From Acidimicrobium ferrooxidans (lineage in GTDB: Bacteria > Actinomycetota > Geothermincolia > Fen-727 > Anoxymicrobiaceae), in contig DYIU01000003.1 in assembly GCA_020723485.1 (NCBI GenBank), positions 62,001 through 126,000 on the forward strand: a stretch of 64,000 nucleotides of DNA. Direction: 5' to 3'. The notes below the pieces were generated by a model. It saw only the letters and a list, made by a program, of their open reading frames with translations, ran no database searches and had not been told where the DNA came from. Made by a program: the position numbers and the translations under genes. Positions within the stretch are counted from its first letter, which is position 1; every line of letters begins with the position of its first letter. Below, in pieces: positions 43,913-59,521 of this stretch.

Positions 43913-44881
43913 TCAGGCCCCGGCGGCCTTGAGGGGCTCCCACCAGGAGCGGTTGTCGACGTACCAGCGGACCGTCTCGGCGAGCATGTTCTCGAAGTCC
44001 GTGCGGGGCCTGTAGCCGAGCGCGGCAAGCTTTCTGAAGTCGAGCGAGTAGCGGCGGTCGTGTCCCAGCCTGTCGGGGACGTGCTCTATGAGCGACTCGG
44101 GCTTTCCCAGCGCGGCCAGTATCCCGTGCGTTATCTCGGAGTTGGTGCGCTCCTGCCCCCCTCCGATGTTGTAGACCTCGCCGGGGATTCCCTCGCGCAG
44201 TACGAGGTCTATCGCCGCGCAGTTGTCGGTGACGAAGAGCCAATCCCGCACGTTCATGCCGTCGCCGTAGAGGGGCAGCCGCCTGTCCTCCATGGCGTTG
44301 GTGATGAACAGCGGTATGAGCTTCTCGGGGTACTGGTAAGGCCCGAAGTTGTTGCTGGACCGCGTGACGATGACCGGCATGCCGTAGGTCTTGTGATAAG
44401 CGCGCACCAGCAGGTCTCCCCCGGCCTTGCTGGCGGAGTACGGGCTGTTCGGCTTGAGCGGCGAGCTCTCCGTGAACGAGCCGTCCTCTATGCTGCCGTA
44501 GACCTCGTCCGTCGATATCTGGACGTACCTCGCGGTGCCTTCGCGCCTGCACGCCTCGAGCAGGTTGAACGTCCCGAAGACGTCGGTCTGTATGAACTCG
44601 GCGGGCCCCGTGATGGAGCGGTCGACGTGGCTCTCCGCGGCGAAGTTGACCACGGCGTCGAAACCCTCGGCAACGAGGCGCCCCACCAGCTCCGCGTCGC
44701 AGATGTCGCCCTTTTCGAAGGTGTAGTCGCGGCCGCCCTCCACGTCGCGCAGGTTATCCGGGTTGCCGGCGTAAGTGAGCTTGTCCAGGTTGGTTATCGA
44801 GACGCCCTCGTGCCCGGCGAACATGAACCTTATGAAGTTGGAGCCGATGAACCCGCAGCCCCCCGTTACAAGTAGCTTCAA
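43913..44881 (-). CDS. rmlB: dTDP-glucose 4,6-dehydratase
   Basis: About 322 residues starting at a TTG at 44881 with GAGGGG seven bases upstream, giving the family N-terminus KLLVTGGCGFIGSNFIRFMF; the ATG at 44896 overlapping rmlC's stop is possible. The Rossmann loop GGCGFIG, the STDEVYGS segment with the catalytic Asp/Glu neighbourhood, and YSASKAGGDLL (YxxxK) are all present, as is RSSNNFGPYQYPEKLIP. Converts dTDP-glucose to dTDP-4-keto-6-deoxyglucose, the branch point for rhamnose and other deoxysugars. Last gene of rmlA-rmlC-rmlB. Confidence 0.95.
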   Translation of the reverse strand: MKLLVTGGCGFIGSNFIRFMFAGHEGVSITNLDKLTYAGNPDNLRDVEGGRDYTFEKGDICDAELVGRLVAEGFDAVVNFAAESHVDRSITGPAEFIQTDVFGTFNLLEACRREGTARYVQISTDEVYGSIEDGSFTESSPLKPNSPYSASKAGGDLLVRAYHKTYGMPVIVTRSSNNFGPYQYPEKLIPLFITNAMEDRRLPLYGDGMNVRDWLFVTDNCAAIDLVLREGIPGEVYNIGGGQERTNSEITHGILAALGKPESLIEHVPDRLGHDRRYSLDFRKLAALGYRPRTDFENMLAETVRWYVDNRSWWEPLKAAGA

Positions 44882-44892
44882 TTCGGAGCCCC

Positions 44893-45348
44893 TCATCCCA
44901 TCTTGATTTCCCAGTCGTAAGGTATCTCGGGCGTGTCGTACGGCAGGCGGTGCTCGTCGGGCTCGTCATAGTCGTACAGCTCGTTGGGCACGTTCACCAC
45001 GTACGCCTCGCAATCGCTGATGCACTTCCAGCCGTGGTGGACACCGCGCGGGATGTGGACCAGCACCGGGTTGTGCTCGCCGGGGAACACCTCCTGGACC
45101 TCGCCGCGGGTCGTCGAGCCCTCCCTGCCGTCGAAGAGCACGAGCTTTATCATTCCCTTGACGCATACCACGTTGTCGTCCTGCTTCCTGTGCATGTGCC
45201 AGCCCTTGATGACACCGGGATACGTGGTGGTCAGGTACGTCTGCCCGAACCGCTCGAAGACCTCGTCGTCGCTGCGCAGCATCTCCATCAGGTGCCCTCT
45301 CTCGTCGGACACCACCCTGAGCTTCTTTATCTCCACTCCGTCGATCAT
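44893..45348 (-). CDS. rmlC: dTDP-4-dehydrorhamnose 3,5-epimerase family cupin
   Basis: 151 residues, shorter than classical RmlC (about 180). The cupin core shows GVIKGWHMHRKQDDNVVCVK and HIPRGVHHGWKC, with His residues at the usual places, and the ending PEIPYDWEIKMG is typical of a short RmlC-like group. GGGGAG precedes the ATG. Lying between rmlA and rmlB it is expected to epimerise dTDP-4-keto-6-deoxyglucose, though members of the short group can also be single-position epimerases or ketoisomerases, so the final sugar is not certain. Confidence 0.83.
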   Translation of the reverse strand: MIDGVEIKKLRVVSDERGHLMEMLRSDDEVFERFGQTYLTTTYPGVIKGWHMHRKQDDNVVCVKGMIKLVLFDGREGSTTRGEVQEVFPGEHNPVLVHIPRGVHHGWKCISDCEAYVVNVPNELYDYDEPDEHRLPYDTPEIPYDWEIKMG

Positions 45349-45390: not shown

Positions 45391-46455
45391 TTAAATTATG
45401 CCGACGCGGCTGTTGTCGCCGAGCATGAAGCGGTAGGCGTTCGGCTTCAGGGGCGAGCGGCCCACCTCGACGTTCTGGCCGATGAGGCTGTCCTCGATCC
45501 TGCCGGGGATGTCCACCACCCGGCTGTTCTCGAGGATGATGCTGTGCTCGATCTCCGAGCCGACGACCTCCACCCCGAAATAGATGCTCGTGTAAGGCCC
45601 GATGAACGAGTTCACTATCCTGGTGCCCTCGCCGATGATTGCCGGGCCCCGGACGGTGCTCCCGATTATCTCCGCGCCCTTCTCGACGACCACGGTGCCC
45701 TCGGTCCTGGACTCGCTGTCCACGTGGCCCTCGCATGCGGGCTCCATGGTCTCGAGCATGATGCGGTTCGCCTCGAGCATGTCCTCCAGCCTACCGGTGT
45801 CTTTCCACCACCCGTCTATGACGTGTGGGTCGACCGCAAGCCCGTTGTCGATCAGCCACTGGATGGCGTCCGTGATCTCGAGCTCACCCCGGCCTGAGGG
45901 CTTTATCGCCTTGCAGGCGTCCATTATGTTCCCGTCGAACATGTAGACCCCCACCAGGGCCAGGTCGCTGGCCGGCTTGTCCGGCTTCTCCACCAGGCGG
46001 ACCACCCTGCCGCCCTCCAGCTCCGCGACCCCGAAGCGCTGCGGCTCCTTTACCCGGGCGAGCAGTATCTGGCTGTTCGGCTTGTTCGTCCTGAACTCGT
46101 CGGCGAGGCCCTTGATGCCGTCCTTGATGAGGTTGTCGCCCAGGTACATGACGAAGTCCTCACCGGCCAGGTACTCCTCGGAGACAAGCACGGCGTGGGC
46201 GAGCCCCAGCGGCTGCTCCTGGTGGATGTACCGCACGTTGAGACCCCACGGCGAGCCGTCCCCCACCGCCTGGATTATCTCCTTCGATGTCTCGCCGACC
46301 ACTATGCCGACGTCATCCACGCCCGCCTCCTTGATCGCCTCGAGCCCGTAGAAAAGCACGGGCTTGTTAGCTATTGGGACGAGCTGCTTGGCCATCGTGT
46401 GAGTTATCGGACGCAGCCTCGTTCCGAAACCGCCGCAGAGTATGAGTGCTTTCAT
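45391..46455 (-). CDS. rmlA: Glucose-1-phosphate thymidylyltransferase, long form
   Basis: 354 residues. N-terminal nucleotidyltransferase: MKALILCGGFGTRLRPITHT, with the pyrophosphorylase signature GGxGTRLRP, then FVMYLGDNLI and VEKPDKPASDLALVGVYMF. The C-terminal part (about 245-354) is a left-handed beta-helix of hexapeptides (IIGSTVRGPAIIGEGTRIVN), as in the roughly 355-residue StrD-type enzymes of actinobacteria and archaea. Makes dTDP-glucose from dTTP and glucose-1-phosphate. The 42-bp gap to rmlC contains CCTGACCCGGGTGTT, which resembles a decayed GGGGTCAG arm. Confidence 0.94.
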   Translation of the reverse strand: MKALILCGGFGTRLRPITHTMAKQLVPIANKPVLFYGLEAIKEAGVDDVGIVVGETSKEIIQAVGDGSPWGLNVRYIHQEQPLGLAHAVLVSEEYLAGEDFVMYLGDNLIKDGIKGLADEFRTNKPNSQILLARVKEPQRFGVAELEGGRVVRLVEKPDKPASDLALVGVYMFDGNIMDACKAIKPSGRGELEITDAIQWLIDNGLAVDPHVIDGWWKDTGRLEDMLEANRIMLETMEPACEGHVDSESRTEGTVVVEKGAEIIGSTVRGPAIIGEGTRIVNSFIGPYTSIYFGVEVVGSEIEHSIILENSRVVDIPGRIEDSLIGQNVEVGRSPLKPNAYRFMLGDNSRVGII

Positions 46456-46544: not shown

Positions 46545-47162
46545 TCACTTCCATTCGGAGGGCCTGGGCGGCGCCGGCGGTGGAGGAGGCGGGACGGGCT
46601 GCCGCTGGGGCGCGTGCGGTGGGTCCGCGGCGGCCGTCACCGTGTCGATGTTCACCACCGGCCCGGACCCGGGTCCCCGCGGCGGACCGGCGGAGCCGTC
46701 GGCGGGCGGTTGCGGCTCTATGCCCGGTATCCTCTCTCCGCAGTGCTCGCAGAACACGGCGCCGGGCACCTGGATGGCTCCGCACCTGGGGCAGTACCTC
46801 CCGCCGGCCCCGCCCGGAACCGCGGCCGGGGCAGCGGCCGGGAACGGTGCGGTAGGATACTGCGGGTACGGCTGCTGCCCGTACTCGGGGTATCCGCCGG
46901 GATAGTAGTGCGTCTGCGCGGCGCGCCTTCGGCTCGAGTCCTGGGAATAGAGCACAAGGTATACGAGGAGCGCCGCTACCCCGCACATTATGCCCCAGAC
47001 GATGGCCAGCGCTTCGTTCCGGCCGGAGTTCTTAGCGAAGTACCAGCAGCCGTACGCGCACGCCGCGCTCGCCGCCAGGCCGAAGATGAGAGAGACGGCG
47101 CTCGAGATGATCTCGTCGTTGGCGGCCGCGATGTGAATGGCCGCCGGTATCATGGACGTCAT
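46545..47162 (-). CDS. Membrane protein with C-terminal double-CxxC zinc ribbon
   Basis: 205 residues from the ATG at 47162, six bases after the deacetylase stop. Two hydrophobic segments (about 16-41 and 50-70) are followed by a Tyr/Pro/Gly-rich linker (YYPGGYPEYGQQPYPQYP), a zinc ribbon YCPRCGAIQVPGAVFCEHCG near 125-145, and a Pro-rich tail (PPPPPPAPPRP). The longer minus-strand frame that reaches back to 47636 is the antisense-like shadow of the deacetylase. Family not recognised; coupled to the deacetylase gene. Confidence 0.7.
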   Translation of the reverse strand: MTSMIPAAIHIAAANDEIISSAVSLIFGLAASAACAYGCWYFAKNSGRNEALAIVWGIMCGVAALLVYLVLYSQDSSRRRAAQTHYYPGGYPEYGQQPYPQYPTAPFPAAAPAAVPGGAGGRYCPRCGAIQVPGAVFCEHCGERIPGIEPQPPADGSAGPPRGPGSGPVVNIDTVTAAADPPHAPQRQPVPPPPPPAPPRPSEWK

Positions 47163-47167
47163 GTCGC

Positions 47168-48208
47168 TCACTCGGGCTGAAGCACGCCGGAGAGGGTCGT
47201 GAGCTCGAAGCCGCCGGCCCTGAGGTTGCTCACGATCTCGATGAGGGACGAGGCGGTGTACTTGCCGAGCGTATGCATCAGCACAATCTCCCCGCCCTCG
47301 ACCCCGACTGTGGCCCGGTCCCTTATCTCGGCCTGGATCGTCCCCGGCTCCCAGTCCAGCGTATCCCTGTCCCAGGTCACCACCGCGTACCCCCGGCTCG
47401 CGGATACCAGCTGCACCCTCGCGTCCATGTCCCCGTAGGGAGGTCTGAAGTAGGCCGAGATCTCCGCGCCGGTGACCTCCCGGACCGCCTCGGCGGTTCG
47501 GTCCAGCTCGCGGGCTATCTGCTCGTTCGTAAGGGTGGTGAACATCGGGTGCGAGTAGGAGTGGTTCGCTATCTCGAACCCGCGGTCGACGGCGGCGCGC
47601 AGTATCCCGGGGTTCTTGTAGCACCACGCCCCGCACACGAATATCGTCGCAGGCGCCCGGAGCCTGGTCAGCTCGTCGATGACCGCTCGCGCGGCCGTGG
47701 GCTCGGCCACGTCACTGGTGTCGAACGTCAGCGCCACCCGCTTCTTGCGGCTGTTCCCGCTCGATATCACCGCCACGTCCCGCGGCCCATCGGGGGGAAG
47801 GCTCGGCGGCAGTATCAGGTAGCCGCCGTCAGGCTTGAACGCGAGCTGCCGCGGCGGAAGGCTGTAGCCGCGCAGGAGCCCCATCTCGCGGAGCCTCGTG
47901 AGTGAGACCACCTCACCCTGCGCCTCCTTGCCCCCGAGCGGCACCAGGTAATCGAGGCCCTTCACCCTCGAATCGAGGGACCCGTCGGGGGGCAGGGCAT
48001 GGAGCCTTCCCCCTTCGGCTTCCAGGGCGTTCACGACGCCCTGGCGGGGGGCCGCCACCCGCGGGGGCACGCCCAGGGCGAAGTGGAAGGAGCCCGCCGC
48101 GAGCGCGAGAACGAGCAGGAGCGCCACCGCCTTGCCGTTTACGTCGGAGTGCGCGATGAGCGGCGTTCCGCCTTTTCCTGTGCCCTTCCCTGCCCGACTT
48201 CCTCTCAT
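47168..48208 (-). CDS. Membrane-anchored polysaccharide deacetylase (CE4/NodB)
   Basis: 346 residues with an N-terminal membrane anchor (GKAVALLLVLALAAGSFHFA, about 25-45). The NodB domain spans about 150-340: VALTFDTSDVAEPTA (motif 1), ANHSYSHPMF (motif 2, zinc His pair), AYFRPPYGDMD (motif 3) and EIVLMHTLGKY (motif 5 His). Motif 1 has DTSD where the usual TFDDG has two adjacent Asp, so the zinc site may use a different residue. Family members remove acetyl groups from peptidoglycan or capsular amino sugars. It follows the SpoIID-type gene by 24 bp and probably shares its transcript. Confidence 0.87.
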   Translation of the reverse strand: MRGSRAGKGTGKGGTPLIAHSDVNGKAVALLLVLALAAGSFHFALGVPPRVAAPRQGVVNALEAEGGRLHALPPDGSLDSRVKGLDYLVPLGGKEAQGEVVSLTRLREMGLLRGYSLPPRQLAFKPDGGYLILPPSLPPDGPRDVAVISSGNSRKKRVALTFDTSDVAEPTAARAVIDELTRLRAPATIFVCGAWCYKNPGILRAAVDRGFEIANHSYSHPMFTTLTNEQIARELDRTAEAVREVTGAEISAYFRPPYGDMDARVQLVSASRGYAVVTWDRDTLDWEPGTIQAEIRDRATVGVEGGEIVLMHTLGKYTASSLIEIVSNLRAGGFELTTLSGVLQPE

Positions 48209-48232
48209 CGCTCCCGCCAGTACGTCCGCCGC

Positions 48233-50443
48233 CTACAGGCCGGTGTAACCTTCCGCGAAGTACCACACGTTGGACGGGGAGGTCACGCCCACGGTGTCGT
48301 GGCCGCCGTCGCGCAAGCAGTAGCCGTCCGTGTAGACAAAATACACGGCGCGCTCCGCTATGACCTTCAACCCGTTCAGAGATTGGACTGTCGTAGCCAC
48401 CTCGGTGTCGGCGAGCCCCTCGACCTGGTCCACCGGTATGGTGAAGCGGGACCTCGCCTTGACCGTGTACTCTTTCTGAACCGAGCCGCCCCCGGGGGTG
48501 TTGAAGGTCACCCTGACCTGCGCGGGCGCGGCCTCGGGGTTCTGTATCATGACCCAGGTGTCGAACCTGCCCCCGGTGTAGCCCTCTGCCAGGTACCAGG
48601 TCTCGGCCGGTGACTGCACGCCTATGCTCGCGTGCCCGTCGTCGAGCCCGCAACCGTTGTAATCGAAGTACATGGCGCGCTCGGCTATGAACTCCACGCC
48701 GTTCGACGAGACCAGGCTCGTGGAGAACCCTGCGTTCTCGAGTCCGGCGATGTTGTCGGCGTGGACAGTGTACCGGGAGTGCGGCGCGAGCTCGTAGGTG
48801 CGCCTGATGTTCCTGCCGTCCTCCCTCATGAACGCGGCGTCCACCGAGCACACCTGCTCGCCGGGATTCTGCATGAGCACGTAAGTGTCGAACTTCTGCC
48901 CGGTGTAGCCTTCCGCCAGGTACCACGTCGGCGAGGGAGCGGTCACTCCGGGGCTGTTGCTCCCACCGTCCGCCCCGTAGTAATTGAAGTAGGACGAGCG
49001 CTCGGCGATTATGCCGTTGCCGTTGGTGCACTCGACCAGGGCGGAGACATCTGTCTCCTCGAGACCGGGGACCCCATCGAGCATGAGAGTCATTCGTGAA
49101 GCGGGCGGGGCCTGGGCGGTGTGCTCGATGGTCCCGCCGCCGGGCAGCATGAAGGTGAACCTGACGTCGGCCGGGGCCTGCTCGGGGTTCTGAACGGTGA
49201 TGTAGGTCTCGAAGGTGCCGCCGGTATACCCCTCGGCGAAGTACCATCGCTGCTGCGGGCTGGTCGCGCCGGCGCTCACGCTCCCGCCGTTGAAGCTGCC
49301 CCGGCAGTCGAAGTAGAGCGCGCGCTCGGCTATCACCGGCGCATCGGATACCACCTTGGTGGAGACCTCCTGGAACTGCAGGTAGTCGTTGACCTTGAGC
49401 GTGAACCGCGAGTTGGCGCCGACCTCCTCCGCCTGCACCGAGTTGGTGCCATCCGGCTGCATGAAGGTGAACGTGACGACGGTGGGCTGCGGGTTCGGGT
49501 TCAGGACGCAGATGTACTCGTCGAAGTTGGAGCGCACTATGTCGTACTTCGTGCTCTGGAATCCCAGGAGACCCTGGATGGTGCTCCCGGGGACCGACTT
49601 CACCCCCCCGGAGCCGGTGAGCCGCGCCGTCCGGACCCTGCCGCCGGGAGTCCTGTTCGAGAGGTCCATCACGTACAGGATCCCGACCGCGGTGTCCGAT
49701 CGGGAGTTGAGCCTCGCCTCCAGCTCCGACCGGCGGAATGTGGCGTTCCAGGAGTAACGAGGAGAGTACTGGCAGTACGAGTCGGGCTTTCCCCTCAGGT
49801 ACGGGATGGCCGAGCCGCCCCAGACGTCCTCGTTGTTCTCGGAGTGGCCCCCGCAGGAGCCGCAGTAAGCCGCGATTATCGGCTGGCCGTTGTAGGTCAT
49901 TATCTGGCCCACCGTGGCGTCTACAGCGGCGTTGTTGTTCGGGTAGTTGGGAATGTTCTTGTTCTCGTCGCACGCCTGGCAGCAGTCGCCGCTCGAGCAT
50001 ATGTCGAACCCCTGCGCCGTGTGCTTGTTCCGGGCGATGACGGACAGCGTGTAGGTCCGCGCCGCGACGTAGAGGGCCTTGAGCTCCTCCATGGGGTAGT
50101 TGTCGGGCTCCTCCTGTAGGTGATGCAGGTAATCGTGCATGGTCCATACCCGTATCTGCCCGTCGCGCCCCTTTACCCTGACGGGGCGGTTCTCGTCCGT
50201 GGCGGAAAAGGCGATGCCGGTGTAGTAGTAGCTGAGGATGGTGCGGTAGTCCTGACCTTCCTTGGCCCTGTAGTACACGCCGTCCATGCACATCCCGACG
50301 CCGTGCGCGCGGCCGGTGCCGCTGAAGTAGTAGACCGGGTCGCCGGCCCCGGCGCTCTCGGAAGAGGCCGGGCTCAGCACGAGCGAGAGCATCAGTGCCG
50401 CCATCAGCACGGCTGCTGGTATTCTTTTCCAGAAGTGCGACAT
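48233..50443 (-). CDS. Exported SpoIID-domain protein with a C-terminal four-unit repeat ring
   Basis: 736 residues. Signal peptide 1-30. Residues about 35-290 form a SpoIID/LytB domain: GTGRAHGVGMCMDGVYYRAK comes first, then MEELKALYVAARTYTLSVIA with the conserved Glu, and VGQIMTYNGQPIIAAYCGSC. SpoIID proteins cleave stem-peptide-free glycan strands or stimulate amidases, matching the amidase gene two genes upstream. The repeat domain (about 306-736) begins at NFDEYICVLNP without its WYLAEG strand and ends in the stub WYFAEGYTGL. Transcription probably starts at a promoter in the AT-rich 63-bp gap just upstream. Ribosome site AAAAGG. Confidence 0.87.
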   Translation of the reverse strand: MSHFWKRIPAAVLMAALMLSLVLSPASSESAGAGDPVYYFSGTGRAHGVGMCMDGVYYRAKEGQDYRTILSYYYTGIAFSATDENRPVRVKGRDGQIRVWTMHDYLHHLQEEPDNYPMEELKALYVAARTYTLSVIARNKHTAQGFDICSSGDCCQACDENKNIPNYPNNNAAVDATVGQIMTYNGQPIIAAYCGSCGGHSENNEDVWGGSAIPYLRGKPDSYCQYSPRYSWNATFRRSELEARLNSRSDTAVGILYVMDLSNRTPGGRVRTARLTGSGGVKSVPGSTIQGLLGFQSTKYDIVRSNFDEYICVLNPNPQPTVVTFTFMQPDGTNSVQAEEVGANSRFTLKVNDYLQFQEVSTKVVSDAPVIAERALYFDCRGSFNGGSVSAGATSPQQRWYFAEGYTGGTFETYITVQNPEQAPADVRFTFMLPGGGTIEHTAQAPPASRMTLMLDGVPGLEETDVSALVECTNGNGIIAERSSYFNYYGADGGSNSPGVTAPSPTWYLAEGYTGQKFDTYVLMQNPGEQVCSVDAAFMREDGRNIRRTYELAPHSRYTVHADNIAGLENAGFSTSLVSSNGVEFIAERAMYFDYNGCGLDDGHASIGVQSPAETWYLAEGYTGGRFDTWVMIQNPEAAPAQVRVTFNTPGGGSVQKEYTVKARSRFTIPVDQVEGLADTEVATTVQSLNGLKVIAERAVYFVYTDGYCLRDGGHDTVGVTSPSNVWYFAEGYTGL

Positions 50444-50477
50444 TCGTTAAAACCTTTTACCGTTGATTTTGTTAACT

Positions 50478-50505
50478 ATAGTATATATTTGTTGTTTTTG
50501 TGCAA
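50478..50505 (-). promoter_or_regulatory. Promoter of the SpoIID-deacetylase unit
   Basis: Minus strand: TTGCAC (50505-50500), 16 bases, TACTAT (50483-50478), in a strikingly AT-rich gap. A start near 50471 would leave a leader of under 30 bases before the ATG at 50443. Confidence 0.55.
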
Positions 50506-50506
50506 T

Positions 50507-52888
50507 CTACCTTCCCGTATATCCCTCCGCGAAGTACCACGTCTGCGCGGGGCCCCTGACCGCGGGGGCGCAGGAGCCGCCGGGCTTCCCGGCGTACCGG
50601 AAGTACATGGAGCGCTCGACCACCACCGGACGGCTGCTCGCCATCACGGCGGACACCTCCTCCGAAGCCAGGCCCGGCTCGCCGTCCACCGGAAGTGTAT
50701 AACGCGAATGGGCGCTCACCCGGTACATCCTGTCAATGTACCGCCCGCTCGTGAGCATGAACCGCACCAGCAGGTCGGCGTCCTCGTCGCCCGGGTTCAA
50801 GACGGTGACGTAAGTGTCGAAGTCACCCGACGTGTATCCCTCGGCCAGGTACCATTCAGTTGCCGGCGCGGGGCACCCGAGGGCGTCGTGGCCCCCGGTT
50901 ATCCCGTTGTACGTGAAGTACATCGACCGCTCCGCGGCTATCGGCAGGTCGCTTTGAAGCTTCACCGAGAACGCCTTCGCGCTCCAGCCGCCTATCCTGT
51001 CTACGGCGACCGTACGCCGCGAGCGCGCGTCGACCGTTAACGACTTGTTGGCGGTGGACCCGTTCTCAGCCACCAGGGTCATGATGACGTTCGCAGGCGT
51101 GGCGGCGGGATTCGCTAGCAGGATGTATGAGTCGAATCCGCCGGCGGTGTACCCCTCGGCGAAATACCATTCGGTCGACAGGTACGGAAGGCCCTGGGAG
51201 TTGTGGCCCTCTCTGATCCCGTTGTAATCGAAGTACATCGAGCGTTCCACCACGACCGGGCGCCCGGAGGAGACCCTGGTCGAGAACTGGGCTCTCTCCA
51301 TCCCCGGGACCTGGTCCACCGCCACCGTGTACCTCGAGTACGGAGCCACGTTGCACTTGAGGTCCTGCGTGGCTCCCCCCTCGGTCATGAACGATACGGT
51401 GGTGTCTGCGACCTCGGCCCCGGGATTCTGGACGACGACGTAGGTATCGAATCCATAGTCGGTGCAGCCCTCCGCGAGGAACCAGTCGGTGGCGGGGGCG
51501 GTCGAGCCAGGGCTTGCGTGCCCCCCGGGGAACCTGTCCAGGTACCTGAAGTACATGGCCCGCTCGGCTATCACCCGGCCGCTCAGCACCTCGACTGTCG
51601 TGGAGGCTTCCTCATTGACCAGGGTGTCGTCCATCCTCACCGTTTTCCTGCTGAATGGCTCGAGGCTCCGCTCCTCTACCACCCTGCGGCCGTCCCTCAG
51701 CATGTAGGTAAGCCTTGCCCGCGCGCTCTCGCCGGCCGGGTTGCACATCACGATGTAAGTATCGAACGACTCGGGCTCGGGTTCGTTTATGACCCTCTTC
51801 CCCCAGGCGAAATGGTCGCTCCAGTAACCGGACAGGTAATCCACGCTGACGCCGGCGTTGCTTCCCGTGGAATGGATGAACAGGCCACGCCCTATGTACA
51901 TGCCGGCGTGCCCGACGTAGCTGGACGATGCCGGGTCCTTGTACCAGAATATCGGGTCGCCCGGCAGCAGCTGCTCTCTCGGGACCGTCTGGTAGCGCCC
52001 GTCGCGAGCCTGGTCGTCGGCGGTCCTCTGCATCGGGTAGCCCAGGTTGCTCTGCAGCACGAAGTAAGTGAGCCCGGAACAGTCGTAGCCTCCCTCCGCG
52101 TCGGACTCGCCGCCCCACACGTAGGGGTAGCCGACCTTGGCGAAAGCGCTGTCGAGCGCCCTGCCCCGCTGCGGCCCGGCCAGCGGGCTCTGGCAGCCGA
52201 GGCGGGTGAAGACCTCCTTCACGTACTCCAGGCGCCATTCATCGTACTCCTGCGCCTTCTGTATGCTGTAGGCGAGCTCTCCGCGCGGGTACGGGTTCAC
52301 CGGCCAGGCGCGCGTGTCCCTGTGCCTCAGGTGCAGGTCGCTGGCGACTATCGACTGGCCCGAGTAGGGAGGGGCCCCCGGCCAGAGACCCCACGCGCAG
52401 TAGGCCGGTCCGTCGGCCCCGTCGAGGCCGAGGCCTTTGACGAGCCCCGCCAGGCAGCTGACCGTGGAGTGAGTCTCGCTCGGCCTGAACGAGCCGTCCG
52501 GGTAAGGGTTCATGTAGCCGTGCTTGACGGCGATGTTCGCGTACCGGTAGTCGGGATTCGAATCGGCGAGGTCGGTGAAGTGGATCCCGGGGTCCGGCTG
52601 CTCGGACGCCCGGTTGAACACCTTGACCATCGTACACGCGTACTCGAGGCGCTTCACCGGCTCGTTCGGGTAGAAGTTGCCGTCGTCGGCGCCGTTCATG
52701 TAACCACGGCTCGTCACGTAGTCTATGGCGGCCTGGATGTCCGCGGGCTGGCCGGCGGTATCCGGGAACGTCTGCGCCAGTGTCAGGCCCGGGGCCAGCC
52801 CTGCCAGCACGAGCAGCGCCACGGAAGCAGCCAGCGCGGCCGCGGCCCTGCGCGAGCGCATGCCCGTTCCTGTTCCTGAAGCGCCCAT
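50507..52888 (-). CDS. S-layer-homology, NlpC/P60 endopeptidase with a C-terminal four-unit repeat ring
   Basis: 793 residues from the ATG at 52888, which shares a base with the amidase stop (TGATG). Signal peptide about 10-40. Two clear SLH units (FPDTAGQPADIQAAIDYVTS; FTDLADSNPDYRYANIAVKH) and a weak third cover about 40-215, which should bind the protein to a secondary wall polymer. NlpC/P60 follows (about 245-360): YDCSGLTYFV with the catalytic Cys, VGHAGMYIGRGLFIHST with the catalytic His and the polar third residue. The repeat domain (about 374-793) starts at SFDTYIVMCNP and ends in the stub WYFAEGYTGR. Expected to cleave peptide stems or cross-links at the cell surface. Confidence 0.9.
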   Translation of the reverse strand: MGASGTGTGMRSRRAAAALAASVALLVLAGLAPGLTLAQTFPDTAGQPADIQAAIDYVTSRGYMNGADDGNFYPNEPVKRLEYACTMVKVFNRASEQPDPGIHFTDLADSNPDYRYANIAVKHGYMNPYPDGSFRPSETHSTVSCLAGLVKGLGLDGADGPAYCAWGLWPGAPPYSGQSIVASDLHLRHRDTRAWPVNPYPRGELAYSIQKAQEYDEWRLEYVKEVFTRLGCQSPLAGPQRGRALDSAFAKVGYPYVWGGESDAEGGYDCSGLTYFVLQSNLGYPMQRTADDQARDGRYQTVPREQLLPGDPIFWYKDPASSSYVGHAGMYIGRGLFIHSTGSNAGVSVDYLSGYWSDHFAWGKRVINEPEPESFDTYIVMCNPAGESARARLTYMLRDGRRVVEERSLEPFSRKTVRMDDTLVNEEASTTVEVLSGRVIAERAMYFRYLDRFPGGHASPGSTAPATDWFLAEGCTDYGFDTYVVVQNPGAEVADTTVSFMTEGGATQDLKCNVAPYSRYTVAVDQVPGMERAQFSTRVSSGRPVVVERSMYFDYNGIREGHNSQGLPYLSTEWYFAEGYTAGGFDSYILLANPAATPANVIMTLVAENGSTANKSLTVDARSRRTVAVDRIGGWSAKAFSVKLQSDLPIAAERSMYFTYNGITGGHDALGCPAPATEWYLAEGYTSGDFDTYVTVLNPGDEDADLLVRFMLTSGRYIDRMYRVSAHSRYTLPVDGEPGLASEEVSAVMASSRPVVVERSMYFRYAGKPGGSCAPAVRGPAQTWYFAEGYTGR

Positions 52889-54777
52889 CACCTGGTGCAC
52901 CCCTCCGCGAAGTACCACTCGAGAGACGGCTGCGTTACGCCGAGAGCCGAGTCCCCACCGGACTTTCCCCCGTACGAGTAATACTTCGCCCTTTCGACCA
53001 CGAGCGGCCCGGCGCTCTCGACGGTGGTGGCGAACGCGACACCGCTCATACCACTGACGTCGTTGACCTTCACCGTGCGCCGCCTGTGCGCGGGCACCTC
53101 TATCCTGTGAGTACGCTCGCTCCCGTCCTCGAGCATGAAGCTGAGCAGGGCCTCGGTGTCGGCGTCACCCGGGTTCATGAGCAGCACGTAGGTGTCGAAC
53201 CCCGGCCCCGTGTAGCCCTCGGCCAGGTACCACCTGCTCGCAGGCTCGAGCACCGCGGTGGAGTTGGTGCCCTCCGCTATCCCGTTGTAGTCGAAGTACA
53301 TCGACCTCTCGGCGATGACGGGGGAGCCCGATTCCACCAGGAACGAGACATCGGTGTTCTCGAGGCCGGGCACCTCGTCGACGTGCACGGTGCGCCTGCT
53401 CTGGGGTGCGAGCCGGTAATCCCGCGAGATCGCGGCACCGTCCGGGAGTATATATGTCACCCTTGCGGTGGCGGCCGAGCCCTCGGGGTTCTGAAGCGTG
53501 ACGTACGTGTCGAAGTCCCCACCGGTGTAGCCCTCAGCCATGTACCAGCGGGTGCCGGGCGCGGTCAGTCCCGCCGAGTCGTGCCCGCCCGACGCCCCCT
53601 TGTAGTCGGTGAAGTACATCGCCCGCTCGACCACCACCGGCGACTGGGCGTTGACCTTGACCGAGAAGTCGGCCTCCTCCACTCCCTCGACCGTCGAGCA
53701 GTCGAGCGTGAACCTGGAGTGCGGGGCCAGCTCGTATGTCTCCTGCGCATTGAACCCGTCGTCGCGCATGAACTGTATCGTGACGTAGGTCTCCGAGTCG
53801 GCAGGATTCTGGACGACCACGTACGTGGAGAATCCCCAGTCCGTGGAGCCCTCCGCAAGGTACCACTCGTAGGCCGGCGCCGTTATCCCCGGCGACCCGT
53901 GGCCCCCGGAGCCCCCCGCGAAATCGAAGTACATGGCCCTTTCGGCGACCACCGGCACCCCGTTCGTGCTCTTCACCAGCGTGGCGACGTCGTTGTTGAA
54001 CACAAACTCGTCCAGGTGTACCGTGCGCCTGGTCCGCGGCGGCACCAGCTCCGGGTAGACCTCCTCCAGTCCGTCGCCCCTCATGTAGTGCATCTCCACC
54101 TCGGCGGCCCTCTCCGGGTCCGGGTTCGTGAGGAGGACGAATTCGTCGAAGCGCCCGGGGTCGATGAGGTAGAAGTAAATGCCCGCCGCCACTCCGTCGG
54201 CGATCTGCTGACGGAACTCCGGGTCCTGCAGGAGCCCGGCCTCCTCGGCGTTGGAGACGAAGGCGCCCTCGATGAGCGCCGAAGTCATGTCCGTGTTGCG
54301 GAGCACGTAGAAGCCGGCCTCCTTGACGCCCCTGTCCGGGCGCTGGATGCGCCTCACGACCTCCGTGTGTATGCACGTCGCCAGGCGCTTTCCCTCGGGC
54401 GAATCGTAGTATGAGTAGGTCTCGGTCCCCTGGCTGGTCGTCATGTAGGCGTTGTTGTGGATGCTCACGAAGATGTCCGCGTGGGCCGAGTTGGCGATCT
54501 GGCAGCGCTGCTCGAGCGATAGCGTCACGTCGGTCGTGCGTGTCATGATGACCCTGTAGCCAAGCGATTGGAGGATGGGCCTCACGCGCAGCGCGATGTC
54601 GAGGTTGGGGTCCTTCTCCATGACGCCGTTGTAGTTCGCCCCGGAGTCGTCCCCGCCGTGTCCCGGGTCCAGGCACACAAGGGCGGCCCCGCCGCCCTCA
54701 TCGGCGGAGCGGACGGCCGGCGCGGCTCCCAGCAGGAGCAGCGCCACGGCCGCGGCTACGATCAGCTTTCTGGCCAT
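52888..54777 (-). CDS. N-acetylmuramoyl-L-alanine amidase (amidase_3) with a C-terminal four-unit repeat ring
   Basis: 629 residues from the ATG at 54777; a TTG at 54795 in frame is less likely because the signal peptide begins MARKLIVAAAVALLLLG. The amidase_3 domain (about 30-205) has all four landmarks: CLDPGHGGDDSG (zinc His), VMEKDPNLDIA (zinc Glu), FVSIHNNAYM (zinc His) and ALIEGAFVSNAEE (catalytic Glu). The repeat domain (about 209-629, 421 residues) starts at RFDEFVLLTNP and closes with the stub WYFAEGCTR. It cuts between muramic acid and the stem peptide. A hairpin with a T-run lies between its promoter region and the start codon. Confidence 0.92.
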   Translation of the reverse strand: MARKLIVAAAVALLLLGAAPAVRSADEGGGAALVCLDPGHGGDDSGANYNGVMEKDPNLDIALRVRPILQSLGYRVIMTRTTDVTLSLEQRCQIANSAHADIFVSIHNNAYMTTSQGTETYSYYDSPEGKRLATCIHTEVVRRIQRPDRGVKEAGFYVLRNTDMTSALIEGAFVSNAEEAGLLQDPEFRQQIADGVAAGIYFYLIDPGRFDEFVLLTNPDPERAAEVEMHYMRGDGLEEVYPELVPPRTRRTVHLDEFVFNNDVATLVKSTNGVPVVAERAMYFDFAGGSGGHGSPGITAPAYEWYLAEGSTDWGFSTYVVVQNPADSETYVTIQFMRDDGFNAQETYELAPHSRFTLDCSTVEGVEEADFSVKVNAQSPVVVERAMYFTDYKGASGGHDSAGLTAPGTRWYMAEGYTGGDFDTYVTLQNPEGSAATARVTYILPDGAAISRDYRLAPQSRRTVHVDEVPGLENTDVSFLVESGSPVIAERSMYFDYNGIAEGTNSTAVLEPASRWYLAEGYTGPGFDTYVLLMNPGDADTEALLSFMLEDGSERTHRIEVPAHRRRTVKVNDVSGMSGVAFATTVESAGPLVVERAKYYSYGGKSGGDSALGVTQPSLEWYFAEGCTR

Positions 54778-54797
54778 CAGTCCCACAACCCTCAAAG

Positions 54798-54839
54798 AAA
54801 AAACCAGGCGCGACCGGAGGACGACCTCCGGCTCCCTGG
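54798..54839 (-). terminator. Intrinsic terminator, possibly an attenuator before the amidase gene
   Basis: On the minus strand CCAGG...CCTGG encloses CCGGAGG-TCGT-CCTCCGG, followed at once by TTTTTT. It stands 105 bases after the stop of the 54944 gene and 21 bases before the amidase ATG. A possible -10 (TAAAAT) and AT-rich leader lie between 54840 and 54900, so it may also regulate the amidase gene. Confidence 0.65.
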
Positions 54840-54934
54840 CAAAAGGATTCTTATTCTGTTCGGTTCAACATTTTAACACAGATTTACTTCTCTCATCGGT
54901 ACGGCCGCTCCTTCGCATGAGCGGCGTGCACAAC

Positions 54935-54946
54935 GGGGTCAGGTCA
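54935..54946. repeat. Short GGGGTCAG repeat fragment overlapping a stop codon
   Basis: GGGGTCAGGTCA matches the start of the 25060 and 31047 arms; the rest of the arm is not kept. The stop codon of the gene at 54944 (TGA on minus) is part of this fragment. Confidence 0.5.
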
Positions 54947-57900
54947 GCGGCCGCGGACGCCCAGGGACCCGGTCCCGCCGCTGCGGCCGTTGAAGTAGAG
55001 CGACCGCTCGACGATCACCGGGCCGTTCGCGCTCACTTTCGTGCTTACCTCCGCGGCCGGCAGCACGTCGTCCACGCTCACCGTGAACCGGCTCCGCGCG
55101 CCCACGGTATAGGAGCGGTAGGTGTTCATGCCCCCGGGCTCCATGAAAGTCATCGTCACCGCGCGCGCGTCGTCTCCCGGGTTCTGAACGGTCAGGTAGG
55201 TCTCGAAGCCCTGGTCAGTGTAGCCTTCTGCCAGGTACCACTCGGAGTCGGGCGTCGGCGTGCCTATGCACGCGTGTCCGTCGGAGCGGTCGTTCCAGTA
55301 CATCGCCCTCTCGACCAGCACCGGGTGCTGGGCGCGGACCTTCACGGAGATCTCGCTCGCCTCGAGATACGCGTCGGCGAGCACCGTGAAGCGAGTCTGC
55401 GGCGGCAGGAGGTACCTCTTGAAGGTGTTCGAGCCGTCCGGCTCCATGAATATGACGGTCACGTTGTTGTACGAGTCCTGCGGATTCTGTATGACCACCC
55501 AGGTCTCGAAGCCCTGGTCTGTGTAACCCTCCGCCAGGAACCAGGTCCTCGAGGTGGAGCACGCTCCCAGCGAACACGTCCCGGAGGTCATGTAATTAAG
55601 GTACTGCGCCCTCTCCACCACCACCGGCTGGGAGCTCTCTATGGCGGTCGACACCGACTGCGCCGGGATGACGTCGTCGACGTGTATCGTGAAACGCGAG
55701 CGCGCCCCCACCTGGTACTGCCTGGTCTCGTTTCCGGCGCCGGGGGTCATGAAAGTCGCGGTGACATCCGCTGCGGTATCGCCGGGGTTCTGCACCAGCA
55801 CGTACTCGTCGAAGTCATCGGCGGTGTAGCCTTCGGCTAGGTACCACGTCTTCGAGGGCTCGGAGACGCCTATCGAGTCGTGCCCCGCCCGCCTGTCATT
55901 GAAATACATGGCCCGCTCCACCGCGACCGGCCGGTCCGAGCTGACTCGGGCGCTCACCTCGGCGTCCGGCAGTATCTCGTCCACCGTTATGGTGAACCGG
56001 CTCGCCGCCGGCACCGTGTATGACCGCTCTACGTTGGCGCCGCCCGGCATCATGAACGTCACTTCCACCGCGGCGGGCTGCGCCTCCGGGTTCTGAATCG
56101 TGATGTACTCCTCGAACTCTCCCCCCGTGGCGTTCCGGCCCGTGAACCCCTCCGCGAGGTACCAGTCGAGAGCGAGGTCCGGCACGGAGTTGTTCACGAA
56201 GACGGGTGCGGCCGCGGGGCGCAGCTCGTGGGCCGCGTCCTCCGGCACGGCGTCGATCCTGGCGGTGTAGACGCCGTCACCGACCACCGCACCTCCGCCG
56301 TCCCGCCCATCCCAGGTGAAACTCGACGCCCCGGCGCCCCTGTCGGCTGAGGCGAAGGACCGTACCCTCTGCGACCCCTCCCATATGGAGGGGCTCACCT
56401 CGGACGCGAGCGGGAGGTTGTACGATACGGTGGCCGCGTCGTTCACGCCGTCCGAGTTGGGGCTGATGGCGTGCCCGCCCGCGCTCATCCCTGTGATGTC
56501 GGCGACGTTCCTCCGCGCCGGCGCGGGCAGCAGCGTCGGGTTCGTGACGGTCGGCGGGCTACCCGCGCTCGCGAAATCGAGGACAGGCACCCTGTCGGCT
56601 TCACTTGCGGCCGCCCAGTCCGCCCGCGGGAAGACGGGCACCTTGAGCGGATAGGCGGAAGGCTCGTAGTACAGGGCGTCATCGGGTACGTCCAGGGTGA
56701 GGCCGGCCGCCGCGTCTATGAGGCCCAGGCTCGACACGCCCCTCGGGTAGTATCCCAGGCTCTGCTCATAGGTCGTAGCAGCGGCGCTGCGGGTCCCGCC
56801 GCCGCTCCTCCCGGGGAGCGCCGGGGTGAGCCTCTCGGAGGCGCCTCCGCCCGTGCCGCCCGGGTAGACCACCACGTCCCAGAAAGTCCCCCAGAGGCTC
56901 TTGGCAAAGTACTGCTCGAGGCTCCAGTATCGCGCCCAGAGCGCGGTGGGATTGGCTCCGTTGAGGTTGACCCCGAGCATGCATGCCGCCTGGTCGCGCC
57001 AGACGTTCTGAGACACCCACTCGTTGTAGGCGTCGTAGCTGGAATGGGTGCACCCGTAGGTCTTTAGGGTAGCGGCAGTGGAGTTGGCGAGGTCGGTGCG
57101 CATCCTCGCCGTGTTCGTCGAGGTGAACCCGGCGGCGCGCGTCCCGTTGAGCAGGTATACCAGGCCGTTGGACGGGTAGATGCTGTACGCCTCCCTGTCC
57201 TCCGCGAGCACGTCCGAGTCCCAGGCCACCGCGAAATGGTCGGAGAGCCACATGTCGTAGTCGAGAGCCTGGTTTATCGCCTCGACCTGGCCCTGGCACG
57301 CCGCGGCGAACGTGACGTTCAGGGCGGTGGGATCGGCCAGCGCCATCTCGCGCGCGGCCCGGTGCGCCGCCAGGCACTTTACGCCCAGGTACGCCTGGTC
57401 CTTCCCGAACTGGATCGCGAGTGAGCCCTGGTCCACGGTGTTGCCGGTGTACTGGTCCGGCATCCCGTTGCCGTTCGTGTCGCAGTTGGTCATGAATCCC
57501 GCGAGCTCCCTCACGAGCGCGAGCTTGCCTTTCATGTATGACGTGTCCCCGGTCGACTTCCAGTACTTGTAGAGCATGAGGATGTAGTTCGCGTTCTCCT
57601 CCACCGCCATGTTGTTCGGGTAAGCCTGCCCCGTGGCGGCGTCCCCCATTCCCATGTCGTGCGACATGTAGACGCCCTGCTGCGCGGTCTTCGTATACAG
57701 TGCCCACTCATCCATCGTCATCTTCAGAAGGTCGGGCCAGAAATAGTAATAGAACCACGCCTGGTTGTACTCGGCGTCGATGGTGCTGTGGAACCTGCAG
57801 GTTCCCTCCCAGGTGCTGAACCACTCTCTAGCGTAGTCGGACACGGCCCACCAGGTGTTCATCAGGTAACTCTGGAAGCCGTAGGCCATGAGCTCCTTCG

Positions 57901-59521
57901 CGGGCCCCGCACCCGCGGTTGGAAGCTTCAGGTAGTCCTCGGAGGAGAACGTGCTGTCGAAGAACTCCGAGCGGGTCTCGATAGCGTCCCCGGCGGTGCG
58001 CTGTGAGAGCGCGTAGTCGACGACCGCATCCACGTTGGCGAACTGCTTCGTGTACTTGAACTCGTACGTGCTGTCGGTGTAGGAGGAGTTTGAGACGCGC
58101 AGTATCTTGTCGTCCACGTACCCCGCCAGCACAAAGTGCTTGGTGTCGGAGGCGCCCGCAGCCAGCGTCGGGGTCCAGACGGCGCCCGAATACCCCCTCG
58201 GGTAGAAGCTGTAGAGAGGCTTCTTGTAGTCGGGGTAGGTCTTTGGGTAGTCCATGGGGGAAACATATTCGGTCCAGAGGGTGTCCGGTGTGAAGTCGGT
58301 GAAGTCGGCCTCGGTCAAGCCGCGGAAATTCACGTCAGCTGCCTCGTCTAAGGGCACCGCCAGCGCCTCGACGGAATCCTTGGCCTTCCCGCTGTTGAAG
58401 GTCTCGTCGTAGTAGGTGTAGTTCGTCGAACTCCTGCATCCAGAGGCCTCCGCGGTCGTGTAATCGGCGACGCCGCTGTAAGTGAAGTCCAGGCGATGGG
58501 GCCTCGCGAAGATGAGATCGGGTTGGGCCTCGGATCCGCTGTTGTTCGTCACAGTCACGTCCACGTACATGAAAGGCGCCCCGGAGAGTTCTTCGGCGCC
58601 CGGGTAGAACGGCGAGCGGAACTTTACCTCGACCTCGTACGGAATCCCTGCCTCCGTGCAGGTATAGGTCTGGGAGGTCATGGTCTGGCTGAAGGCCATG
58701 TTATCCCAGACCTGGTACCGGTCGGTGAACGGCAGGCACCGCATGTCGGCCCCGTCCCAGAGGCCGAGTACCAGGTCTTCCAGGTCGCCGGTCCCCTCGC
58801 CCAGCGAGCTCAGGCGCGCGGTCAGCTTCTGCGGCAGCAGGTTCAGCCAGAAGCGCGAGCCGAGCCTCCCCAGGGCGGTCTCGTAGGATTCCTGCCCGGT
58901 GGAGTTGGTGAACCGGTTGGGGACCTCCATGTTGAGGCGGCTCTTCGAGGCATCGATCTCGACCGCGTTCGCGGACCCTCGGTAGACCCTTACGGTGCAC
59001 ACGGTCGCGTAATCCCTGCAGCCCGCTTCATTATACGAGCGGAACCGTACGCCTAACCTGCCATCCGCGTCAGTCGTCCGACCGGTATAGGTAACCTGGT
59101 ATGCGCTGTCCTTACCCACTTTCGCGTATATATCCAGTAGAGAAATCTTCTTCTCATACGTGCCATTGTCGGTCAGGTAGACGTTAAAGACCCTTTTCCC
59201 GGAAGCGGAGAAATCGTGCTCGACGAAGCTCAGTTCTACACTGTAGTCGGTATTGGGCAGAAGATTGGCCACGGTGTACGAGAACCACTTGCCCTCCCTC
59301 TGGCGCTGGAACTTGTATTCCTGCTTCGTGGAGGTATTGGTGCCGCTGATAGCCTGCGAGGTGAAGGTGGAGGGCACGGTGACGTCGTTGGTGCCCGCCT
59401 CGTGGCGCAGCTCCACTATCGGCTGACCCGCTCCTGCCAGGGCCGCCCCCGCCAGGAGCAGGAGCGCGGCGGCCGCGCAGGCCGTGGCAATCAATACTAT
59501 CCTGAGAAGCCTTGAGTCCAT
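54944..59521 (-). CDS. Giant exported glycosidase-like protein with malectin-like, FlgD-Ig-like and repeat-ring domains
   Basis: 1525 residues. Signal peptide 1-30. A malectin-like beta domain (about 35-185, DYSVELSFVEHDFSASGKRV) probably binds sugar. A large region (about 185-960) has a beta domain then a predicted (alpha/alpha) barrel with RFHSTIDAEYNQAWFYYYFW, GVYMSHDMGMGDAATGQAYP, MAVEENANYILMLYKYW and QVEAINQALDYDMWLSDHFA; this order recalls GH52 or DUF4965-type enzymes, but I cannot settle the family. A FlgD-type Ig unit follows (about 1005-1105, ISPNSDGVNDAATVSYNL). The four-unit repeat domain (about 1119-1525) starts with a full DWYLAEGFTG and has no C-terminal stub; the protein stops at SLGVRGR inside a GGGGTCAG fragment. 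Confidence 0.8.
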   Translation of the reverse strand: MDSRLLRIVLIATACAAAALLLLAGAALAGAGQPIVELRHEAGTNDVTVPSTFTSQAISGTNTSTKQEYKFQRQREGKWFSYTVANLLPNTDYSVELSFVEHDFSASGKRVFNVYLTDNGTYEKKISLLDIYAKVGKDSAYQVTYTGRTTDADGRLGVRFRSYNEAGCRDYATVCTVRVYRGSANAVEIDASKSRLNMEVPNRFTNSTGQESYETALGRLGSRFWLNLLPQKLTARLSSLGEGTGDLEDLVLGLWDGADMRCLPFTDRYQVWDNMAFSQTMTSQTYTCTEAGIPYEVEVKFRSPFYPGAEELSGAPFMYVDVTVTNNSGSEAQPDLIFARPHRLDFTYSGVADYTTAEASGCRSSTNYTYYDETFNSGKAKDSVEALAVPLDEAADVNFRGLTEADFTDFTPDTLWTEYVSPMDYPKTYPDYKKPLYSFYPRGYSGAVWTPTLAAGASDTKHFVLAGYVDDKILRVSNSSYTDSTYEFKYTKQFANVDAVVDYALSQRTAGDAIETRSEFFDSTFSSEDYLKLPTAGAGPAKELMAYGFQSYLMNTWWAVSDYAREWFSTWEGTCRFHSTIDAEYNQAWFYYYFWPDLLKMTMDEWALYTKTAQQGVYMSHDMGMGDAATGQAYPNNMAVEENANYILMLYKYWKSTGDTSYMKGKLALVRELAGFMTNCDTNGNGMPDQYTGNTVDQGSLAIQFGKDQAYLGVKCLAAHRAAREMALADPTALNVTFAAACQGQVEAINQALDYDMWLSDHFAVAWDSDVLAEDREAYSIYPSNGLVYLLNGTRAAGFTSTNTARMRTDLANSTAATLKTYGCTHSSYDAYNEWVSQNVWRDQAACMLGVNLNGANPTALWARYWSLEQYFAKSLWGTFWDVVVYPGGTGGGASERLTPALPGRSGGGTRSAAATTYEQSLGYYPRGVSSLGLIDAAAGLTLDVPDDALYYEPSAYPLKVPVFPRADWAAASEADRVPVLDFASAGSPPTVTNPTLLPAPARRNVADITGMSAGGHAISPNSDGVNDAATVSYNLPLASEVSPSIWEGSQRVRSFASADRGAGASSFTWDGRDGGGAVVGDGVYTARIDAVPEDAAHELRPAAAPVFVNNSVPDLALDWYLAEGFTGRNATGGEFEEYITIQNPEAQPAAVEVTFMMPGGANVERSYTVPAASRFTITVDEILPDAEVSARVSSDRPVAVERAMYFNDRRAGHDSIGVSEPSKTWYLAEGYTADDFDEYVLVQNPGDTAADVTATFMTPGAGNETRQYQVGARSRFTIHVDDVIPAQSVSTAIESSQPVVVERAQYLNYMTSGTCSLGACSTSRTWFLAEGYTDQGFETWVVIQNPQDSYNNVTVIFMEPDGSNTFKRYLLPPQTRFTVLADAYLEASEISVKVRAQHPVLVERAMYWNDRSDGHACIGTPTPDSEWYLAEGYTDQGFETYLTVQNPGDDARAVTMTFMEPGGMNTYRSYTVGARSRFTVSVDDVLPAAEVSTKVSANGPVIVERSLYFNGRSGGTGSLGVRGR

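Follow-up and report, generated by a model that had tools for sequence, protein, structure and literature searches.

The window analyzed here is a stretch of 64,000 nucleotides from the Acidimicrobium ferrooxidans assembly GCA_020723485.1 (contig DYIU01000003.1, positions 62,001 to 126,000; class Geothermincolia), and the element in question is a C-terminal domain of four ~105-residue repeats, here called the ring, which is found in each of five proteins encoded in a single gene block, the cassette. Between positions 59521 and 39795, eleven minus-strand genes follow one another with intergenic gaps of −31 to +185 bp (Table 1), an operon-like arrangement that suggests co-transcription. A run of at least four ring genes would arise by chance with P = 0.0007 if the 77 ring genes of the genome were scattered over ~3,196 genes, the latter number being assumed.

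The original prediction for this locus, which described four neighbouring wall or glycan enzymes with a common accessory domain beside a deacetylase and deoxythymidine diphosphate (dTDP)-sugar genes, is borne out by the Pfam and NCBIfam assignments. The gene list given for its range, 46545-59521, and the four C-terminal ring genes in it also hold. The start of the range has to be revised: the long GTG open reading frame (ORF) 46545-47636 overlaps the frame of the deacetylase and is probably spurious, the shorter zinc-ribbon gene being likelier, and the FG-GAP-containing ring gene of the same block had been omitted. A homologue of the zinc-ribbon protein was found in one (L138) of the relative stretches compared. 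For the large protein with a glycoside hydrolase (GH)-like domain, a sequence search of the PDB at E ≤ 0.01 returned no match.

Table 1. Features of the window, with the basis of each assignment.
Feature	Coordinates	Strand	Basis
Malectin + GH-like (GtaA-like six-hairpin) + FlgD_ig + ring protein, 1525 residues	54944..59521	-	Pfam
Ring of GH-like protein, canonical register (W strand N-terminal)	54947..56170	-	repeat profile, AlphaFold
Secreted Amidase_3 (6.9e-56) + ring, 635 residues; nearest named model CwlD, below cut-off	52888..54795	-	Pfam, NCBIfam
Ring of amidase, register C103	52891..54156	-	repeat profile
Two SLH + NLPC_P60 (5.3e-19) + ring, 803 residues	50507..52918	-	Pfam
Ring of NlpC/P60 protein, register C103	50510..51772	-	repeat profile
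SpoIID/LytB-type (SpoIID 1.9e-12) + ring, 736 residues	48233..50443	-	Pfam
Ring of SpoIID protein, register C103	48236..49531	-	repeat profile
Polysaccharide deacetylase (Polysacc_deac_1 4.9e-30), PdaB/PdaA-like below cut-offs, without ring	47168..48208	-	Pfam, NCBIfam
Zinc-ribbon protein	46545..47180	-	
RmlA (rmlA_long, above cut-off)	45391..46455	-	NCBIfam
RmlC-like cupin (TIGR01221, below cut-off)	44893..45348	-	NCBIfam
RmlB, dTDP-glucose 4,6-dehydratase, above cut-off	43913..44896	-	NCBIfam
FG-GAP beta-propeller + ring, 933 residues	40926..43727	-	Pfam
Ring of FG-GAP protein, register C103, modelled	40929..42197	-	AlphaFold
Methyltransferase at end of same-strand block	39795..40790	-	
Wzt-type ABC ATPase with Wzt_C, at least 21 kb from ring cassette	18602..19774	-	Pfam
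Sixth ring protein of window, ring mid-chain, register C50, outside cassette clade	2057..4513	-	

All six ring proteins of the window match the Pfam family DUF5719 (PF18986) above its cut-off (30.8-65.2 bits versus 26.2), the match being to a part of the profile that recurs along the ring. The Pfam ASRT model was matched weakly, by hits that score below its cut-off (E 1.7e-4 and 4.4e-4). A profile built from 17 repeats recovers TM1070 (1nc7) from the PDB at E 1.2e-4 on sequence information only. AlphaFold models of the ring of the FG-GAP protein (pLDDT 96.9, pTM 0.93) and of its circular permutant, the ring of the GH-like protein (pLDDT 94.4, pTM 0.91), have TM1070 as their best fold in the PDB, with Z of 17.2 (root-mean-square deviation 2.1, 107 residues aligned) and 16.2, respectively; ASRT proteins follow at Z of ~13 and ~12.5, and in both cases the rows after these fall to Z under 7. 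By its sequence and predicted fold, each ring repeat is thus an ASRAH domain (the ASRT/TM1070 superfamily), that is, an eight-stranded beta-sandwich. We have also considered a beta-propeller as the fold of the ring, and this was ruled out, each unit being a beta-sandwich with 1nc7 as its best fold. The top long Foldseek alignments, to fibronectin and complement chains, were discarded as their TM scores are under 0.2. Two residues are conserved: a Trp at the start of strand 1, present in 28/28 filled units of the wall rings defined below and the commonest residue there in other rings (which often have Phe or Tyr instead), and an Asn at the end of strand 2, present in 32/32 wall units and 254/256 units of other rings.

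The 77 ring ORFs of the genome differ in where the chain enters and leaves the repeats. Judged by the end of the last unit, the register is close to position 88 in 58 of them, to 76 in 9, to 103 in 7 (two of these being fragments) and to 50 in 3. The total stays at four units despite the differing register of chain start and end: 73 ORFs cover 3.6-4.2 units, one (L103) has two tetrads, and three are fragments. In the canonical register the Trp strand is N-terminal; in the SpoIID, NlpC, amidase, and FG-GAP rings of the window it comes at the C-terminal end, and the first domain is complete only with this last strand of the chain. Natural circular permutants at a constant total of four units imply that the chain ends meet, and the registers together with the confident models thus point to a closed ring. 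The likeness between units according to their position is weak across registers, likeness to the same position being found mainly in the C87 class.

The ASRAH superfamily, which includes the Anabaena sensory rhodopsin transducer and TM1070, was defined by De Souza, Iyer and Aravind in 2009 (PMC2739507). According to that study, solo members are tetramers and secreted members are dyads or tetrads fused to an amidase, the latter (family 2) carrying an N-acetylmuramoyl-L-alanine amidase, and the authors predicted a sugar cleft and sugar binding (PMC2739507). The rings share with these proteins the eight-stranded sandwich, the conserved Trp and Asn, the tetrads, the secreted amidase fusion, and the predicted cleft (PMC2739507), and differ from them in being single-chain rings opened at four registers, with 77 ORFs in one genome and many types of cargo. 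The statement in the original prediction that no named system combines these parts is therefore too strong, since ASRAH tetrads fused to amidases have been described since 2009 (PMC2739507). Within the cassette, only the amidase has the family 2 architecture, the remaining proteins having other domains. The ring is, in other words, a known kind of domain; what is new is the scale, the single-chain form in four registers, and the wall-associated subtype. WhiB and glycosyltransferase genes would be expected as neighbours of the lipoprotein of family 3 (DUF5719). Full-length DUF5719 is represented by one protein of G038 (354 bits over residues 1-318 of 319), where the nearest WhiB gene is ~20 kb away. 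Our literature search found no paper that names DUF5719, and among the matches listed, PMC2739507 is the only relevant work on ASRAH; the matches listed for Geothermincolia, Solincola, and Geothermincola contain, in title and start of abstract, nothing on surface proteins.

Rings are a trait of the whole class. DUF5719 matches occur in 30/30 class relatives searched, with counts from at least 7 to at least 63 per genome, and of 149 genomes sampled across the phylum, the 13 that belong to the class each reach at least 32 matches and 20 of the 136 outside it have 1-3 weak ones. The named records among the ring loci belong to Candidatus Solincola, Geothermincola, and Geohydrothermomicrobium. In the genome studied here, the 77 ring ORFs are spread throughout and most carry cargo unrelated to the wall. 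A Pfam tally of 81/83 non-ring parts (leaving out L107:2972-5749 and L118:7066-7290) is led by TIG (10 members), followed by virginiamycin-B-lyase-type propellers, metallophosphatases, SGL, and Big_13 (4 each), and by subtilases, papain- and C39-like proteases, YkuD, M23, SpoIID, and deacetylases (2 each). Single Pfam scans cover most ring proteins, the exceptions being L081, L087, L092, L105, L118, L126, and L127:8094; for L098, L107:5032, and L110 the labels come from phmmer comparison with domains of the window. By a crude script, a hydrophobic N-terminal stretch is present in 69 of the 74 full ring ORFs and a later transmembrane-like stretch in 3, and the same kind of script detected an LPxTG-like C-terminus in 0/74. 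From these signals the ring proteins are presumably exported, with the ring as a module in general use among them.

This breadth of cargo, with beta-propellers, TIG, subtilases, papain-like proteases, metallophosphatases, immunoglobulin-like (Ig), and fn3 domains among the partners of the 77 rings, would fit a general docking or assembly module that joins exported proteins to, for example, a scaffold or sheath by protein-protein contacts and has no specificity for wall glycans, the wall enzymes being one class of cargo among others. The absence of enrichment of ring genes near glycosyltransferase genes agrees with such a role. However, a sugar-type cleft is a feature of the superfamily (PMC2739507) and the sequence subtype of the ring follows peptidoglycan-enzyme cargo, as set out next, and we consider the docking explanation unlikely.

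A tree was calculated for 72 of the 77 ORFs, those with exactly four full units, which leaves out the three fragments, L103 with its double ring, and L127:8094-9788, one unit of which is split. The five cassette rings form one clade with the rings of two YkuD proteins (L,D-transpeptidases) and of a GH paralog (support 98/90), the inner six rings being supported at 98/85. The clade covers three registers and distant loci, and the two YkuD rings are unlinked to the cassette. A Pfam peptidoglycan-enzyme domain is present in 5 of 8 members of the clade and in 3 of 64 rings outside it; the label needs 5 changes on the tree against a mean of 7.7 after shuffling, and 2 of 500 shuffles were as low. 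The grouping of cassette rings with two L,D-transpeptidase rings thus indicates that a wall subtype of the ring exists. At L107:2972-8163, a second GH-like gene with a ring is apparently split over two overlapping frames, for which a frameshift or a duplicated neighbour is a possible cause.

Class-wide, 75 loci were gathered by ring similarity alone, of which 40 are cassette-type (25 SpoIID, 9 FG-GAP, 4 NlpC, 1 amidase, and 1 GH), 13 YkuD-type, 7 CAP, 5 propeller-like, and 10 other. Because the queries were cassette rings, the 40 are partly expected, and the held-out part is the 13 YkuD loci, compared with 2 YkuD proteins among the ring proteins of the genome itself. The YkuD cargo of the 13 relatives was assigned by BLAST to L124/L127 and checked with Pfam in 2/13, the CAP cargo being checked in 3/7. 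The CAP-domain group (L020, L021, L023, L028, L029, L030, L055), which extends across the class, has rings close to the wall type.

The enzyme parts of the cassette resemble sporulation-type wall enzymes at the level of sequence, the amidase being nearest to CwlD and the deacetylase to PdaB and PdaA. The equivalog cut-offs of NCBIfam were missed (CwlD 138.3 versus 221.6; PdaB 134.5 versus 237.4; spore_II_D 123.9 versus 234.8), while the domain model SpoIID_LytB was passed with 148.9 against a cut-off of 83.3. A relative in the Chlamydiales has a SpoIID homologue that works outside sporulation and has naked glycan strands as its substrate (PMC6635528, in the portion considered here); the present protein is likewise of the SpoIID type and would share this action. 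The present gene differs in standing in an operon-like block with an amidase and in its apparently permuted SpoIID domain, and the same portion of that paper mentions no ring (PMC6635528). In the alignment to the solved SpoIID structure 4rwr, residues 41-82 match residues 279-320, in the C-terminal part, and residues 111-277 match 79-248; owing to this crossed order the domain looks circularly permuted.

The kinship to self-wall enzymes bears on another explanation, namely that the rings, as carbohydrate-binding modules, recognize polysaccharides of foreign origin (nutrient glycans or those of biofilms) and that the enzymes attack other cells or debris. Rings on GH-like or lyase-like domains (L112, L109, L132) would suit such modules. 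However, the cassette cargo is CwlD-, SpoIID-, and Pda-like and lies beside dTDP-sugar genes, and the ring content is class-wide, which makes this explanation very improbable. The lyase-like case L109:3730-7686 is a rhamnogalacturonan-lyase-like (PcRGLX) protein whose ring has the C103 register and falls outside the cassette clade.

The neighbourhood of the SpoIID gene is conserved. Of the 12 order relatives, 10 (G001, G003, G005-G012) have SpoIID with a ring next to the deacetylase/rmlA-C-B block, the contigs of G002 and G004 ending too soon to judge; the deacetylase was not found in G009 and G010. No such block was visible in the stretches read of the seven genomes examined from outside the order. 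In three of these seven, all of one genus (G020-G022), SpoIID with a ring stands directly before wzm-wzt, and in the stretch read of the other four there is no ring SpoIID. The loci with this wzm-wzt arrangement outside the order of the window are L045, L056, L066, L077, and L150-L152. Wzt labels given by phmmer with no Wzm alongside, which may be other ABC ATPases, were kept out of the counts.

The original prediction held that the common ring may target all of these enzymes to one partner, for example the polysaccharide exported by the adjacent locus. This interpretation is borne out in part. The retained rml adjacency and the wall ring clade favour it, while the genome-wide spread of rings and the lack of glycosyltransferase enrichment do not: ring genes lie within 5 kb of glycosyltransferases in 4 of 77 cases versus 6.6 expected (P 0.86, circular shifts), and a genome-wide tie of rings to polysaccharide loci is thus unsupported. 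The proposed survey of the co-occurrence of rings with wzm/wzt and rml genes has been run and is not decisive inside the class, where Wzt_C and RmlC are near-universal (29/30 relatives each). Both markers are present without a ring in G032 and G034.

In its specific form, the proposal is that the cassette rings bind the very polysaccharide made and exported by the adjacent rml/glycosyltransferase/Wzm-Wzt locus. It draws on the kept rmlA-C-B adjacency, on the SpoIID genes that precede wzm-wzt in G020-G022, and on the 26-30 kb that separate Wzt_C and rmlC where both are on a single contig, in G000, G001, and G007. An analogy is found in C. difficile, where PSII binds CWB2 proteins and the locus thought to make PSII is immediately downstream of the S-layer/cell-wall-protein locus (PMC4973711, in the sections used here). 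Against this, the YkuD rings of the same clade are at a distance of over 75 kb along the contig, G009 has the block with no Wzt_C match, ring genes overall are not close to glycosyltransferases, and G013, G015, G018, and G019 have wzm-wzt with no ring SpoIID in the stretch read. A direct ligand link to the adjacent polysaccharide is possible and the data point to it weakly; as a specific pairing for the cassette we regard it as quite improbable.

On balance, the ring is probably a multivalent glycan-binding address tag for the wall, functionally like CWB2, its sugar binding being predicted by analogy with the superfamily. The cassette would then be a conserved wall-remodelling operon, the ring enzymes of which share one tag. 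The tag would consist of four ASRAH domains that close into a ring within one polypeptide and correspond to the four subunits of the ASRT/TM1070 homotetramer. With each domain providing the place of the predicted sugar cleft, four like sites may bind with avidity to a glycan of repeating structure in the cell's own wall. Exported enzymes could in this way be kept in the wall non-covalently, like rings holding the enzymes that bear them on one wall glycan. The CwlD-like amidase would strip stem peptides from the wall glycan, the SpoIID-type enzyme would cut the denuded glycan, and the NlpC/P60 enzyme would cleave stem peptides, while the PdaA/B-like deacetylase, which has no ring, would trim bare glycan. 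The dTDP-sugar enzymes, which are presumably co-transcribed, may provide a sugar from which the anchoring polymer is made.

Several observations weigh against the address tag. The sugar binding of the rings is a prediction carried over from PMC2739507, and the ligand signature SHEshChhN of ASRT proper is not kept in the wall rings, two ligand positions of which are mostly Asp/Glu and Thr/Leu/Val. The cassette clade is a post hoc grouping, delimited with the cassette rings as the starting point, and local duplication could account for part of their likeness. Moreover, 3 of 8 peptidoglycan-enzyme rings (SpoIID L098, M23 L099, M23 L106) fall outside the clade, and 3 of its 8 members (FG-GAP and the two GH-like proteins) are not peptidoglycan enzymes by Pfam. 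SLH is a usual alternative wall-attachment module, and the NlpC/P60 ring protein already has SLH domains of its own. Finally, the deacetylase carries no ring, and its first motif, in the alignment to 7y51, is TFDTSD. In NodB-type deacetylases motif 1 is TFDDGP, and the metal-binding Asp of the cassette enzyme may have been moved or lost.

The residues at the putative site do differ between the ring types. With positions mapped from PMC2739507 and from the alignment of the repeat profile to TM1070, 86/256 units of other rings have Cys at unit position 6 (Cys29 of TM1070), where Thr/Leu/Val predominate among the 32 wall units, and position 2 (His25 of TM1070) is Asp in 20/32 wall units and mostly Glu elsewhere. 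The biggest difference is at position 99, which is Tyr in 22/28 filled wall units and mostly Thr/Ser in the other rings.

Compared with known anchors, the ring resembles CWB2 of C. difficile in that tandem repeats occur on many wall proteins, the anchoring to a polymer is (here, would be) non-covalent, and a polymer locus lies beside the gene cluster; it differs in that CWB2 has three repeats of an unrelated domain and that the binding has been shown there and is inferred here (PMC4973711, same sections). In the Pfam scan of the five ring proteins (E ≤ 0.01), CWB2 was not detected. The SLH system is represented by two repeats on one of the five, the NlpC/P60 protein; the difference is that this is the single SLH protein found in the whole genome. 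Little is known of how deep-branching uncultured actinobacteria retain exported proteins at the surface. If the ring is an anchor, a single domain would account for where some 75 proteins of this genome end up, SLH and CWB2 would be joined by a new module for non-covalent attachment to the wall, and the extracellular ASRAH family would gain a ligand candidate, namely the polymer of the conserved dTDP-sugar/wall-enzyme operon.

A wider generalization, which we offer tentatively and hold to be possible rather than probable, is that a ring code organizes the envelope throughout the class (Solincola/Geothermincola relatives). In each genome dozens of exported proteins, about 75 here, would carry closed four-domain glycan-binding rings, and the sequence subtype of the ring, rather than the cargo or the gene position, would set the location in the envelope. 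The wall subtype, in its three registers, would address the amidase, SpoIID, NlpC/P60, and L,D-transpeptidase enzymes to one polymer.

Two ring proteins with other architectures may be mentioned here. The sixth ring protein of the window has no further confident Pfam domain besides its ring. The double-ring L103 (L103:8253-14324) is a protein of 2024 residues in which nine TIG domains lie between the two tetrad rings.

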